From NCBI RefSeq assembly GCF_000426625.1, contig NZ_KE384548.1, forward strand, positions 1,026,703 to 1,090,702: a stretch of DNA of 64,000 bases. The letters run 5' to 3'. The DNA comes from Psychrilyobacter atlanticus DSM 19335. GTDB taxonomy: Bacteria; Fusobacteriota; Fusobacteriia; Fusobacteriales; Fusobacteriaceae. Below the pieces are notes generated by a model. The model was not told the origin of the DNA. It saw only the letters and a program-made list of their open reading frames with translations, and did no database searches. Of this stretch, positions 1-29,588 are shown in pieces; position 1 is the stretch's first letter, and every line of letters begins with the position of its first letter. The position numbers were made by a program, and so were the translations under genes.

Positions 1-171
1 ATCTCCAAAATCAACAACCATTCCTCTCAGTTGTCCCTCTTGTTTTAATTTTTCACCACATATTTCTGCTATAACTTTCCATCTGTGTCCGTGAATATTT
101 GAACACTTCCCCTGATAACCTGCTAAGAAATGAGCACTGTCAAAACTGTGTTCTCCCTTTAATATATACAT
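1..171 (-). CDS. queD: 6-carboxy-tetrahydropterin synthase (QueD), 5' part only
   Basis: The minus-strand frame from the ATG at 171 runs open to the window edge, giving 57 residues. QueD converts 7,8-dihydroneopterin triphosphate to 6-carboxy-5,6,7,8-tetrahydropterin, the first dedicated step of preQ0/preQ1/queuosine synthesis. Visible signatures are the zinc-ligand region FDSAHFL and the CSNIHGH motif, which fits the CxxxHGH pattern of QueD enzymes (catalytic Cys, two Zn-binding His), followed by VVDFGD. A Shine-Dalgarno (GGAG) lies just upstream, and the gene starts 14 bases after the activase gene, so it is the third gene of that operon. The C-terminal half is outside the window. A PTPS-III-type relative is possible but the Cys motif favours QueD. 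Confidence 0.88.
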   Translation of the reverse strand, partial: MYILKGEHSFDSAHFLAGYQGKCSNIHGHRWKVIAEICGEKLKQEGQLRGMVVDFGD

Positions 172-185
172 ACTTTATTTCTCCT

Positions 186-980
186 CTATATAAATTTTTC
201 TCCATAATAACAACATCCTATAGCTCCATTAAACTGTGGATCCTCTAGGACTTCTACCTCTGTATAATCTGATTTCAGATATTCTACAATAGAACGGTTT
301 TTTGCTACTCCTCCACTGACAACAAGAGTATTCCCTCTAAATTTTGTAAGTAAGGGACGTAATCTGCTGTACATAGAATAATTTATCCCTGCTGCTAACC
401 TGTCCAAAGGTATCCCTTCAGCAATCTTTCCAATCAATTCTGATTCTGAAAAAACAGCACATGTTGAATTAAGTTTTACTGGATCTTTAGAATAATTTGA
501 GAGTGAATCCAAAGGGACCTCTAAAACATTAGCCATATTCTCTAAATATCTCCCACAAGAAGCTGCACACTTATCATTTAGATCTAAATCAGTAGCCAGA
601 CCCTTTTCAATTTTTACAATTTTTACATCCTGTCCCCCAATGTCTAAAAGGATAAAATCTTTTTTTCCTGACTGGGCTAAAGCCCCATATACATGAGCTT
701 TTATCTCATTTATAGGTTTAAACATACTCAGATCTGTATTATTCCGTCCATATCCTGTGGAAACGGCCAGATCCACATCCTCTATTCCTAATTTCTTTAA
801 ATCTACGATTATTTTATTCTGGTATTGGCAATAATCTCTGTAAAAAGATACTGTACTTATCTTCTTTCTCAATACTATTTTTTTTTCTTCTGTAACTATA
901 ATTTTAACTTCTCTGCTGCCTAAATCTATTCCTACTATTTTTTTAGGAGTTATTTTTGTTTTACAGGTAATATCATTCAT
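186..980 (-). CDS. ATP-dependent activase of the BadF/BadG/BcrA/HgdC family
   Basis: 264 residues, an ASKHA-fold ATPase that injects low-potential electrons into a 2-hydroxyacyl-CoA-dehydratase-type partner through a [4Fe-4S] cluster shared by a homodimer. Seen: the phosphate-1 loop GIDLGSREVK (17-26), LLDIGGQDVKIV (111-122), KCAASCGRYL (137-146) and STCAVFSESE (172-181), and VSGGVAKN (221-228). Cys138 and Cys174 match the two cluster ligands of HgdC. Its ATG lies inside the end of the preceding gene (8-base overlap), so the two are translationally coupled, which fits an activase with its own substrate protein. Family assignment is firm. The pathway is not: the downstream queD and upstream riboswitch suggest 7-deazapurine metabolism rather than amino-acid fermentation. 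Confidence 0.92.
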   Translation of the reverse strand: MNDITCKTKITPKKIVGIDLGSREVKIIVTEEKKIVLRKKISTVSFYRDYCQYQNKIIVDLKKLGIEDVDLAVSTGYGRNNTDLSMFKPINEIKAHVYGALAQSGKKDFILLDIGGQDVKIVKIEKGLATDLDLNDKCAASCGRYLENMANVLEVPLDSLSNYSKDPVKLNSTCAVFSESELIGKIAEGIPLDRLAAGINYSMYSRLRPLLTKFRGNTLVVSGGVAKNRSIVEYLKSDYTEVEVLEDPQFNGAIGCCYYGEKFI

Positions 981-2001
981 TAATTATCTCCAATCTGTTT
1001 TTAGCATAATCACGTTGCTTTTTATCCTTTAACATATCTAAAAAAGCTTCTATCCTTAATTTAGTCCTGGCATCTAAAACATTGGATTTATCCCCTTCGA
1101 TTGTTAATATAGGTATATTTAACTCCTGTTTTAAAATTATATCCTCAACTGCACGATGGCAGAATGCCTGGGTATAATGGATAACCGCGTCTAATTTTCT
1201 TTCTTTTATCTGCTTTTTTATATCCTCTAACCTGAAATCTATATCATATGTATATGTATAGTTATAATACTGTTCATATATATCTTTGGATTCCATGGCT
1301 CTTGGAAAAGCAAACTCCCTCTGAACTTCATTGTATATAAACCTTCCGTCTAAGACCTCAACATAATCATGAAGATCTCCCTGCATAGGGGGTATCCCTA
1401 GATATCCCAGCTTTAATCCTTTTTTATCTATAGGTCTTTTATTTATTTCTTCTATCTTTTCATCTAAAAAATTACTGTATCTCTCCACATCTCCGTCAAA
1501 ATCACTGAAACACAGCTGAAGTATATGATTTTCAAAACCTGTTGCCTTCCCCTCTAGAGTCAATGCATCTATGTATTTCGCTTTTTCCCTTATCAGGTTT
1601 AGTCTATCTCTCTGGGACTCTACCTCTTCATAGGATACACCCATATATTTCATAAGTTTATCTAATTCATTTTTTATATCATCTAAAGAGTGGGAGTGGG
1701 GATAACCGAAAGAATGTATTTTTATATTATTTTTTTTAAATATTTCTAAAAGTGTTTTAGTATTAGAGCAATCCCCCTCTGTTACACCCAAAACTTCCTC
1801 TATTCCATTTTCAATGCAGGCACCGTATATTCCCTTAATCCAGGCACACATACTTTTAGGAAATCCGTCCCGTTCTGCTTTTTCTATATATTTTCCATAG
1901 TCTTTGGAAACAACAAAAATATTATTTAAATCTATGGGAGTATACCCTGCTGCTAAAAGTACCTCTATCGGTACGGTAGTTGTTAAACCTATTTTTTTCA
2001 T
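973..2001 (-). CDS. 2-hydroxyacyl-CoA dehydratase D-family protein, possible double-cubane-type reductase
   Basis: 342 residues from the ATG at 2001, chosen because AAGGAAA lies just upstream. A longer reading from 2064 would run backwards through a hairpin repeat and is rejected. The fold family is that of HgdB/BcrB (PF06050). Cysteines in SMCAWIKG, IYGAC, EGDCSNTK, QLCFSDFD and AFCHRA are candidate iron-sulfur ligands. Single-subunit members paired with one activase include YjiM/YjiL-type proteins and the double-cubane cluster proteins, which perform ATP-driven reductions of unknown physiological role. No CoA-transferase or second dehydratase subunit is present, so a classical hydroxyacyl-CoA dehydratase is unlikely. 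The gene is first in an operon with the activase and queD. Substrate unknown. Confidence 0.8.
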   Translation of the reverse strand: MKKIGLTTTVPIEVLLAAGYTPIDLNNIFVVSKDYGKYIEKAERDGFPKSMCAWIKGIYGACIENGIEEVLGVTEGDCSNTKTLLEIFKKNNIKIHSFGYPHSHSLDDIKNELDKLMKYMGVSYEEVESQRDRLNLIREKAKYIDALTLEGKATGFENHILQLCFSDFDGDVERYSNFLDEKIEEINKRPIDKKGLKLGYLGIPPMQGDLHDYVEVLDGRFIYNEVQREFAFPRAMESKDIYEQYYNYTYTYDIDFRLEDIKKQIKERKLDAVIHYTQAFCHRAVEDIILKQELNIPILTIEGDKSNVLDARTKLRIEAFLDMLKDKKQRDYAKNRLEIINE

Positions 2002-2033
2002 TTTTTTCCTTTCATAATTTAAGCAATAAAAAA

Positions 2034-2048
2034 GCAACGTGGCGTTGC
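2034..2048. repeat. Palindrome GCAACG-TGG-CGTTGC in the leader (copy 1)
   Basis: A 6+3+6 base palindrome, followed on the minus strand by a T-run. It lies 33 bases upstream of the dehydratase-family start codon. A near-identical element (GCAACG-TGA-CGTTGC, also flanked by ATCC) sits at 5355-5369 upstream of lrgA. It could be a protein-binding site or a leader hairpin; both copies are 5' of minus-strand operons. Confidence 0.6.
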
Positions 2049-2078
2049 ATCCAGACAAGCACAATTAACTTCTTGCAA

Positions 2079-2107
2079 TTAGTATTTTGGTGATGCCCCT
2101 CCGGGTA
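2079..2107. repeat. Dispersed repeat, copy 1 (TTGGTGATGCCC core)
   Basis: The segment TAGTATTTTGGTGATGCCC followed by CGGGTA recurs in diverged form at 55696-55719 and 55733-55782 (inverted) and at 57889-57948 (direct). No reading frame covers it. It is part of a non-coding repeat family placed in intergenic gaps. Confidence 0.65.
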
Positions 2108-2120
2108 TAAACTTTTAGGT

Positions 2121-2150
2121 AATAAAAAAGAGGATACACACAGTATCCTC
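2121..2150 (-). terminator. Intrinsic terminator in the queD-operon leader
   Basis: GAGGATAC and GTATCCTC form an 8-bp stem with a 5-base loop, and on the minus strand it is followed by six T. No minus-strand gene lies upstream. It therefore most likely terminates the leader that contains the preQ1-type aptamer, that is, a riboswitch expression platform. Confidence 0.82.
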
Positions 2151-2192
2151 CAATAAAATCAAAATAGAACTCTGAAAAATTTCCAGAATTGT

Positions 2193-2235
2193 GTCCTAGT
2201 TTTATTTATAGACAGGATGGTACCAGTGAACTGTC
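2193..2235 (-). ncRNA. Candidate preQ1-I riboswitch aptamer
   Basis: Read on the minus strand, the parts are in the order of the class I preQ1 H-type pseudoknot. P1 is GACAG/CUGUC and the loop starts with UUC. The loop segment CUGG(U) can pair with (A)CUAG in the 3' tail to make P2. UACC precedes the 3' P1 strand, and the A-rich linker is UAUAAAUAAAA. The size (43 nt) fits the class. It precedes a terminator and an operon containing queD, the expected kind of target. Recognition is by eye; no covariance model was run. Confidence 0.72.
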
Positions 2236-9344: not shown

Positions 9345-11034
9345 GGGCATCCACCTCCTTTATAAGGGTATCTAACTCCTCTAAAAGACTATCTTGAATG
9401 GTTTGTTTGGTCCTCTCATCTGAGATAGAATTATTCAGTATGAGAAGATCTTTTACCTCTATCAATCTGGTTCCTATGGCAAAGTTATCTAAAGAATATT
9501 TTTTTAAATCTATCTCACGGTGATTAATTCTAAGAGCTACTCCAGGAAGTTCATTCATCAGATCCTCTATTGCTTTTCTCTCAAATATTTTAAGTCTGTA
9601 ATAAGGTAATATCTCAAGAGCTATAATACTCTTCTCCTGAGCAATCCCATAAAAAAATATATTTTCCTTAGTACTTTCAATATGTTTAATCCCATCAAAG
9701 TTAACTTTAAGATGGATACTTTTGAGATGAATGATTTTTGAAATTTCATTTTCTATCAAAAATTTTAACTGTGAAATATTCAAAATTTCAGACTCTTTAA
9801 ATAAAATATGATTTAAGGAAAAATGTTGGGATTCCACAGCATTTTTTAAATTGATATAAAGAAGGTCAGTTCCTAGCAATATAATAAGAGCCATAAGGGT
9901 TGATTTAAAATCCCTAGTATAGATAAGATATAGATAGGCTAAAAAAACTATATAATTTACACGACCCATCCACCAAAAAGTTGACCTTAACAATCCGTAT
10001 TCTCTAGAACCTGAAAATACATATGCCTTAAACAATACCAGAATAAATACCGATAGAAATATATATATCTCAACAACACTATCGATCCTTCCATTTTCAA
10101 ATTCATGGAAGGTATAATACCATGTAAATATTGTGGTAAGAAAAGCTACAAAGGAAAAACTTCCTTCATTAAACAATTTAAATTTACGAAATCCCTTTAA
10201 TGGAAACGGCATAGTAGCAATAAATATTATAGTAGATATCATGGGAAATAAAAATTCCCTACTGGAAACAAGAACTATAAAAAACAACATAAATATATTT
10301 GTATTTTTTATGTGTAGCAGGAGATCAAAAACTTTTCCAAAATCCAGAAAAACTAGAGCTCCTAAAAAACCTATTTGGAGAACAAAAAAAAGATTTATGA
10401 GCTTTTTTATGAAGCTCTCAAATGGTATTTTTATCTCTTTAACAACCCATTTCAGCATTGAAAAGCCTAAAAATACTTCAAACAGCAACGATAGTTTATA
10501 TGTAAGTTTCCAGACTTCAAAATCATAATATTTTAACCCGAACATTATAATCCTGAGAGAAATTATGATTAACAGCGACAGAGTCGCTGCTCTGAGAAAT
10601 CTATTTTTTTCTTTATTGATAATGGTTGATGTAAAAAATATAAATATCGTAGATATAAACAACATAGAATATAAAAATATAGATTGTTTTTTATCAAAAT
10701 CTGAAGACTTAAAAAATATCTTTGAAAGTTTTTGATACCCCTCAGTCCGATTGAATTCAATAATTTTTTTCTGGTCTTCATATCCAAGCTCAAGAGTATA
10801 TCTTCCCTTGTCTAACTCAAAAATATAGATATCATCCAAAAAATCTACCATAGGGACATCTATCAAATCATTGTTCTGATCATATATATCAACATCAATT
10901 AGATTATAGATCTCTGGAAGTTTTTCCAAACCGACCTCTAATTTTAGATAATTCCCTGTAGCAGCTGGATGGTATAAAAGTAATATATAGACTAGGGGTA
11001 TAAAAATAAGCCCCAAATATTTTTTTGATTTCAT
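9316..11034 (-). CDS. Membrane sensor-like protein partnered with the LytTR regulator
   Basis: 572 residues. An N-terminal membrane segment or signal (residues 5-24) is followed by about 90 extracytoplasmic residues, then about eight membrane helices (roughly 115-385). The soluble cytoplasmic tail (about 400-572) is rich in ISQLKFLIENEISKI-type helices. The layout resembles 7TMR-type sensors, but no H-box, N-box or G-box of a histidine kinase is recognisable, so it is not a standard LytS kinase. Its stop overlaps the LytTR gene, which implies co-translation and joint function as sensor and regulator. I could not assign a named domain. Confidence 0.6.
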   Translation of the reverse strand: MKSKKYLGLIFIPLVYILLLYHPAATGNYLKLEVGLEKLPEIYNLIDVDIYDQNNDLIDVPMVDFLDDIYIFELDKGRYTLELGYEDQKKIIEFNRTEGYQKLSKIFFKSSDFDKKQSIFLYSMLFISTIFIFFTSTIINKEKNRFLRAATLSLLIIISLRIIMFGLKYYDFEVWKLTYKLSLLFEVFLGFSMLKWVVKEIKIPFESFIKKLINLFFVLQIGFLGALVFLDFGKVFDLLLHIKNTNIFMLFFIVLVSSREFLFPMISTIIFIATMPFPLKGFRKFKLFNEGSFSFVAFLTTIFTWYYTFHEFENGRIDSVVEIYIFLSVFILVLFKAYVFSGSREYGLLRSTFWWMGRVNYIVFLAYLYLIYTRDFKSTLMALIILLGTDLLYINLKNAVESQHFSLNHILFKESEILNISQLKFLIENEISKIIHLKSIHLKVNFDGIKHIESTKENIFFYGIAQEKSIIALEILPYYRLKIFERKAIEDLMNELPGVALRINHREIDLKKYSLDNFAIGTRLIEVKDLLILNNSISDERTKQTIQDSLLEELDTLIKEVDAHDQNRPLGE

Positions 11035-29346: not shown

Positions 29347-29356
29347 TAAAAAAGTT

Positions 29357-29432
29357 GTGGCAACTGGCTGTCATATCTTAATAGACTTAGACCCTTTAGT
29401 TTTGCGTCACAAAATTTCTCCTGTTTTGCCTT
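29357..29432 (-). ncRNA. c-di-GMP-I (GEMM) riboswitch
   Basis: Minus-strand RNA shows the class I landmarks in order: GGCAAA at the 5' side, a GAGAAA-capped helix, GACGCAAA, AAAGGGUCUA, a variable P1a-type hairpin, and the 3' hallmark ACAGCCAGUUGCC. The closing helix pairs GGCAA with UUGCC. A terminator and an HD-GYP gene follow. Recognition is by conserved blocks; it is one of the clearest RNA features in the window. The rest of the 29196-29668 gap holds no gene. Confidence 0.94.
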
Positions 29433-29588
29433 TTTCAGAATTATTCTTTTAGTTATATTCTTTTATTCTTAAACAAAATATTATAACTTTATCTTCATAA
29501 TAACAAAATAAAATAAAAACTTCAAATTATCCTATAAAAAGTAAGATAATGATAGGCTTTTTAAAAAACTAACTAGAATTAAGAAAAT

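Follow-up and report, generated by a model that had tools for sequence, protein, structure and literature searches.

QueF, a protein with the GTP cyclohydrolase I fold, converts preQ0 to preQ1 during queuosine synthesis; no other enzyme is known for which reduction of a nitrile to a primary amine is the physiological reaction. The part of PMC11625349 used here describes QueF as NADPH dependent. We analyzed a stretch of 64,000 nucleotides from Psychrilyobacter atlanticus DSM 19335 (contig NZ_KE384548.1, positions 1,026,703 to 1,090,702; here called the window), the minus strand of which carries a queuosine operon without queF. Two adjacent genes of this operon encode P0001, a protein of the HGD-D family, and P0002, an HgdC-type ATP-dependent activase. 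Comparison of genomes and sequences suggests that this pair is very probably a non-homologous replacement for QueF that fills the step from preQ0 to preQ1.

The closest described systems are iron-sulfur enzymes. Class I benzoyl-CoA reductases (BzdNO, MbdON) depend on ATP-driven activation, act on CoA esters, and have two unlike large subunits, one of them with a double cubane. The 2-hydroxyacyl-CoA dehydratases (HadBC and HgdAB, with the activator HgdC or HadI) are heterodimers that also use CoA esters, with no net redox change. Double-cubane cluster proteins (DCCPs) and their reductases (6eno, 7yyl; NF040772) are encoded by a single large-subunit gene beside one activase gene. In the sections of PMC11971306 drawn on here, BzdNO is described as holding an [8Fe-9S] cluster on six cysteines and a catalytic [4Fe-4S]-OH2 cluster on three, with the authors suggesting that space for the substrate arose when a sub-cluster was lost. 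The same sections report that DCCPs reduce acetylene, hydrazine and azide, so small triple-bond or nitrogen substrates are reachable for this superfamily.

A queuosine operon without queF

The minus-strand order is an RNA motif, a terminator, the HGD-D-family gene, the activase gene and queD. The genes for P0001 (973 to 2001; 342 aa plus stop) and P0002 (186 to 980; 264 aa plus stop) overlap by 8 bases (973 to 980), and 14 bases (172 to 185) separate the latter from queD. The gene order, the overlap and the gap agree with a first-pass annotation of the same DNA, which was also right to place the pair in a queuosine operon behind a leader of the preQ1 type. The start listed for P0001 (TTG 2064) is probably not real; ATG 2001 is preferred because the conserved protein begins there. 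The third gene was identified as queD with TIGR03367 (90.1 bits; cut-off, 89.25). Its first 57 codons lie in the window (1 to 171) and the rest outside (139 aa in total; G000:C3 in our numbering of genomes and contigs, positions 9455 to 9874 of the wider locus L002).

The first-pass annotation had recommended inspection of the genes that follow queD. Beyond the window these are queE (L002 8695 to 9372; TIGR03963) and then queC (L002 7940 to 8617; TIGR00364), and no queF is present in the operon. QueF (PF14489) also had no match in the rest of the genome, in a search that was positive for 8 of 14 control genomes, including E. coli and B. subtilis. This absence had gone unnoticed earlier, and it points to an exact step, preQ0 to preQ1. 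Among the roles that the annotation had offered, 7-deazapurine reduction is the best one for the pair. Neither P0001 nor P0002 matched QueF itself (PF14489 or TIGR03139), with which they have no sequence relation; the likeness to QueF lies in the proposed reaction and in the same place in the pathway and in the operon, behind the leader.

The pair and QueF are mutually exclusive

The distribution of both systems was surveyed in 61 Fusobacteriales genomes (E < 1e-100 for P0001-like proteins and E < 1e-50 for QueC) and in 382 evenly drawn Clostridia genomes with a completeness of at least 95%. In these surveys the HGD-D protein stands for the pair; the activase was beside it in 80/80 and 30/30 loci inspected. 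Among the Fusobacteriales, 14 had a P0001-like protein, 5 had a true QueF and 18 had QueC, and four more QueF matches were weak and all under the cut-off. The 18 QueC-bearing genomes had either QueF (5) or the pair (12), never both, and one (G013) had neither. The two Fusobacteriales genomes with the pair and without QueC are drafts (completeness, 81% and 70%). Among the Clostridia, QueF was found in 46, QueC in 63 and the pair protein in 32. The 63 with QueC were divided in the same way, with QueF in 32, the pair in 30, both in none and neither in one, G301 (Fisher p 3.6e-17, relatedness ignored). The pair was present in 2 of the 305 Clostridia that lack both QueC and QueF. In all, it co-occurred with QueF in 0 of 46 QueF-bearing Clostridia and 0 of 5 QueF-bearing Fusobacteriales. 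No QueF was found in the 50 named pair-bearing genomes either; these are mostly isolates, correspond to 50 of the 80 pair loci described below, and include 9 genomes of the Clostridia sample.

Four QueF matches in pair genomes were rejected. Three (L173 to L175) are FolE, which also accounts for the one match at the cut-off, and the fourth, a weak one (L176; 21 bits), lies below the cut-off and matched no reference protein.

On a tree of QueC (81 rows, with rows shorter than 170 aa or containing stops excluded), the QueF/pair label switches at least three times on well-supported branches, a lower bound that was used because the bootstrap is unsettled and some long branches meet. The exchange of the pair and QueF therefore occurred more than once. 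By the first-pass annotation's own account, its proposal would fail if the standard pathway were complete and related queD operons lacked the pair; what we found is that QueF is absent and that related operons of two phyla keep the pair.

The pair and QueF occupy the same gene neighborhoods

A profile scan of genome contigs provided the locus set, the best 80 of 101 relatives. The activase gene is adjacent to the HGD-D gene on the same strand in all 80, with no second HGD-D subunit between them, and none of the 80 neighborhoods contains QueF. Within 500 nt, the first recognized gene to follow is queD in 48 loci, queC in 14 and a queuosine precursor transporter (QPTR) gene in 3. In 5 loci queD lies farther away, and in 10 neither queD, queC nor QPTR was seen; a QueT-like open reading frame (ORF) comes next in 6 of these 10. 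By Pfam, QueT is encoded in L134, in L160 and, there behind queC, in L130.

Both the pair and QueF occur in two contexts, one with queDE(folE)C and the other with QueT, an importer. In QueF relatives (L087, L090, L091, L209, L210), queD-queE-folE-queC-queF stands behind the same RNA motif, and genome G339 (L212) has the order motif-QueT-queF versus motif-pair-QueT elsewhere. This swap in two settings is the strongest sign that the pair and QueF do the same job. Genome G103, which has the pair and QueT and lacks QueC and QueF, fits with QueT acting as a preQ0 importer. The salvage step proposed in the first-pass annotation survives in one sense only, in that a gene for a precursor importer takes the place of queDEC in some operons of the pair.

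These importer loci are also what favors a different reading, in which preQ0 is reduced by an unseen third protein and the pair serves queuosine precursor use in some other way, such as by salvaging a different precursor. Some pair members indeed adjoin importers only. We consider this reading unlikely. It requires an extra unseen reductase in every pair genome, and if the pair had a salvage role of its own, there would be no reason to expect its complete absence from the QueF-bearing Clostridia and Fusobacteriales surveyed.

Several loci have unusual arrangements. In L114, L149, L157 and L168, the pair and a queD operon lie about 2 to 8 kb apart, each with its own leader motif. Genome G020 has a second HGD-D copy (L082 4927 to 6072) behind which an activase is matched over its first 52 residues only. 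Neither the motif nor queuosine genes were seen near this copy, which is perhaps a decaying duplicate. An apparent fusion of both genes in G194 (a 636-aa frame) was rejected, as a stop codon lies between the genes. G301 (L219) has divergent QueC, QueE and QueT genes and, at the thresholds used, neither QueF nor the pair; a third solution or another use for preQ0 is possible there.

The operon leader resembles preQ1-I riboswitches

The majority form of the leader motif is GACAG-UUC-variable-CCAUC-CUGUC-UAUAAACAAAACUAGG. It lies less than 700 nt 5' of the pair in 76 of the 80 loci, and two of the four loci that lack it have just 132 and 0 bases upstream. The sole other copies within these loci are four in number, each 5' of a separate queD operon. 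As a regular expression, the motif gave 134 matches in the 2.18 Mb of fetched loci, which overlap so that the matches are not independent, and 0 in the reversed sequence. The expression fixes GACAG, CTGTC and AAAAC[TC]A, so these columns are invariant by construction in the resulting alignment (A4) and in the model R1 derived from it. R1 was built from the 42 distinct motif copies of A4, with fusobacterial loci, L166 and the window excluded. It placed the motif of the window at 2236 to 2193 on the minus strand (58.3 bits; E 2.9e-13), and the second-best place scored 14.4 bits. Comparison thus supports the window motif as real.

The first-pass annotation had proposed a preQ1-I aptamer here, to be checked with Rfam model RF00522. 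At the gathering threshold that check gave no match anywhere in the window, and on 1900 to 2600 none appeared even with E values up to 10; support for the proposal comes from comparison, through R1, instead. RF00522 likewise gave no match in 20 Clostridia loci (gathering threshold) and none beside the pair in fusobacterial loci, and in 15 fusobacterial loci the leader was unmatched even at E 0.5. RF00522 apparently leaves an entire branch of widespread preQ1-I-like leaders uncovered. The window motif and A4 have UU after the 5' strand of P1, UC before its 3' strand, and an A-rich tail with a conserved C. The H-type pseudoknot, the UU and UC at P1 and a conserved C in the 3' tail are given as type I preQ1-I features in the consulted portion of PMC11625349. 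Judged by these shared features, the leader likely binds preQ1.

Within 160 nt 3' of the motif, a terminator-like hairpin was present for 77 of 77 copies, compared with 94 of 385 random stretches from the same loci. In the window, three terminator-like sites were found on both strands of 1900 to 2600 versus 0.3 expected. The terminator scan placed the terminator that had been claimed 3' of the aptamer, a candidate expression platform, at 2151 to 2129 on the minus strand, and a second terminator-like hairpin at 2034 to 2048 (minus strand), directly 5' of the first gene; leaders from the same genus have a similar hairpin. In L213, 5' of a queD-queE-folE-queC operon in a QueF genome, the stem is altered and still pairs (GACTG/CAGTC).

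The type of the leader bears on a second reading, that the pair reduces preQ0 after its insertion by TGT, converting preQ0-tRNA to preQ1-tRNA. This would predict the same exclusion of QueF, and TGT is present in 32/32 pair-bearing Clostridia (367/382 overall). Nevertheless, a leader of the preQ1 type, for which the ligand is the free base, leads one to expect a pool of free preQ1, and QueF operons are under the same leader. Insertion of preQ0 before its reduction is therefore a quite improbable route.

The open step is not epoxyqueuosine reduction

The genome encodes QueH (C2:1118788) and QueA (C2:308292), and a search for QueG found none. Elsewhere in the genome, 3' of a sub-threshold RF00522 match, lies a gene for a transporter of queuosine precursors (TIGR00697, 175.2 bits). 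With QueH and QueA present and QueF and QueG absent, the gap lies between preQ0 and preQ1 and not at epoxyqueuosine reduction. The first-pass annotation had asked whether queG and queH were missing; only queG is, and the suggestion of an epoxyqueuosine-type reduction is unsupported, since QueH is present. QueH and QueG were surveyed in the Fusobacteriales set only. Of 14 relatives with the pair, 12 have QueH; the genomes of the remaining two are 62% and 93% complete. QueF-bearing relatives likewise have QueH (4 of 5) or, in the fifth, QueG. That the pair is an epoxyqueuosine reductase, for which the lack of QueG in this genome would speak, is thus very doubtful.

P0001 and P0002 belong to a known superfamily

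P0001 is an HGD-D protein by PF06050 (138.7 bits; cut-off, 28.4), and its closest PDB entries by profile are DCCP (E 3e-14) and HadC (E 1e-5). An AlphaFold model made from 50 sequences had a predicted local distance difference test score (pLDDT) of 88.5. This model matched benzoyl-CoA reductase, DCCP and dehydratase subunits with Z scores of 26 to 31 over 311 to 326 residues (about 30 for DCCP and up to 31.3 for class I benzoyl-CoA reductase), and the next rows had Z < 7. In the alignment of 50 sequences (A3), Cys52, Cys78 and Cys281 are present in all and Cys62 in 48. P0001 thus has the HGD-D fold and the three cluster cysteines of the benzoyl-CoA reductase/2-hydroxyacyl-CoA dehydratase/DCCP superfamily, and shares its three-cysteine [4Fe-4S] pattern with BzdO as described in the sections of PMC11971306 drawn on.

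Within the superfamily, P0001 differs from each described group. Six DCCP paralogues, one from the same genome, have ten common cysteine columns, of which the first 25 pair proteins of A3 retain exactly three. The double-cubane cysteines (six ligands in BzdN, in the same part of PMC11971306) are therefore missing, and no second cubane is expected from the sequence. A double-cubane cluster had initially been assumed from a match to NF040772 and was ruled out by this comparison; P0001 scores 53.7 bits against that model (cut-off, 350). The genome also encodes a separate true DCCP (NF040772, 535 bits; L026 1516 to 2679, minus strand, near G000:C2 1561514). The pair resembles DCCP in having one large-subunit gene beside one activase gene. 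Unlike class I benzoyl-CoA reductases and the dehydratases, which have two different HGD-D subunits, the operon has one HGD-D gene, and it shows no CoA link.

P0002 matched BcrAD_BadFG (116.9 bits; cut-off, 31.5) and the acyl-CoA dehydratase activase model TIGR00241 (160.6 bits; cut-off, 125.4), and its closest structure is HgdC (1hux; E 8.6e-37). Cys138 and Cys174 are invariant in 9 sequences and align with cysteines of 1hux that bind the cluster in HgdC. The Pfam names would suit an ordinary acyl-CoA dehydratase placed in the operon by chance, a reading that the single HGD-D gene instead of two, the linkage across two phyla, the preQ1-type leader and the exclusion of QueF make scarcely credible.

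Proposed mechanism and significance

The chemistry that we infer from the superfamily is an ATP-driven, iron-sulfur-dependent nitrile reduction with four electrons. A dimer of P0002 would share a [4Fe-4S] cluster, hydrolyze ATP and drive single low-potential electrons into P0001. By analogy with its relatives, P0001 should carry one [4Fe-4S] cluster, bound via Cys52, Cys78 and Cys281 and open at one iron, with the nitrile of preQ0 in the vacated space where double-cubane relatives hold their second cubane. Four electrons, delivered one at a time, would then turn the nitrile into the aminomethyl group of preQ1. The preQ1 formed would pass on to TGT, QueA and QueH and would repress the operon via the leader.

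Several points weigh against QueF replacement by the pair. G013, a draft without QueA, and G301 have QueC and lack both systems, and the exclusion counts are uncorrected for kinship. Four of the 80 loci (L106, L123, L158, L169) have no queuosine gene in view; L169 ends shortly after the activase, and three of the four still have the leader motif. Twelve divergent members (L195 to L206) have no detectable leader motif and no RF00522 match. Finally, four electrons from an ATP-driven donor would be costly compared with the NADPH route of QueF.

On balance, it is probable that the pair represents a second, unrelated biological nitrile-to-amine reductase, ATP driven, in which each subunit holds a single [4Fe-4S] cluster on three cysteines and a double cubane is absent. 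It would be the usual preQ1 synthase of preQ0-making Clostridia and Fusobacteria that lack QueF, which would hence be queuosine producers and not auxotrophs. The superfamily and the pathway step are each known; what would be new is the joining of the two. We found no report linking the pair to the QueF step in the open-licence PMC papers searched, and publication elsewhere is possible. If the assignment is correct, it adds a four-electron reduction to the benzoyl-CoA reductase superfamily, provides proteins currently labeled "dehydratases" with a physiological function, and closes a pathway hole in many anaerobes. A genome-based signature for queuosine auxotrophy requires QueF (Table 1, the part of PMC6593275 used here), and auxotrophy calls made in this way would then be wrong for pair-bearing bacteria.

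Elsewhere in the window, a cyclic di-GMP-I riboswitch (RF01051, 77.9 bits) was found at 29356 to 29440 on the minus strand, just 5' of an ORF of 727 aa (29195 to 27012, minus strand). By eye, the C-terminal part of this ORF contains an HD-GYP-like HDVGKIG stretch.

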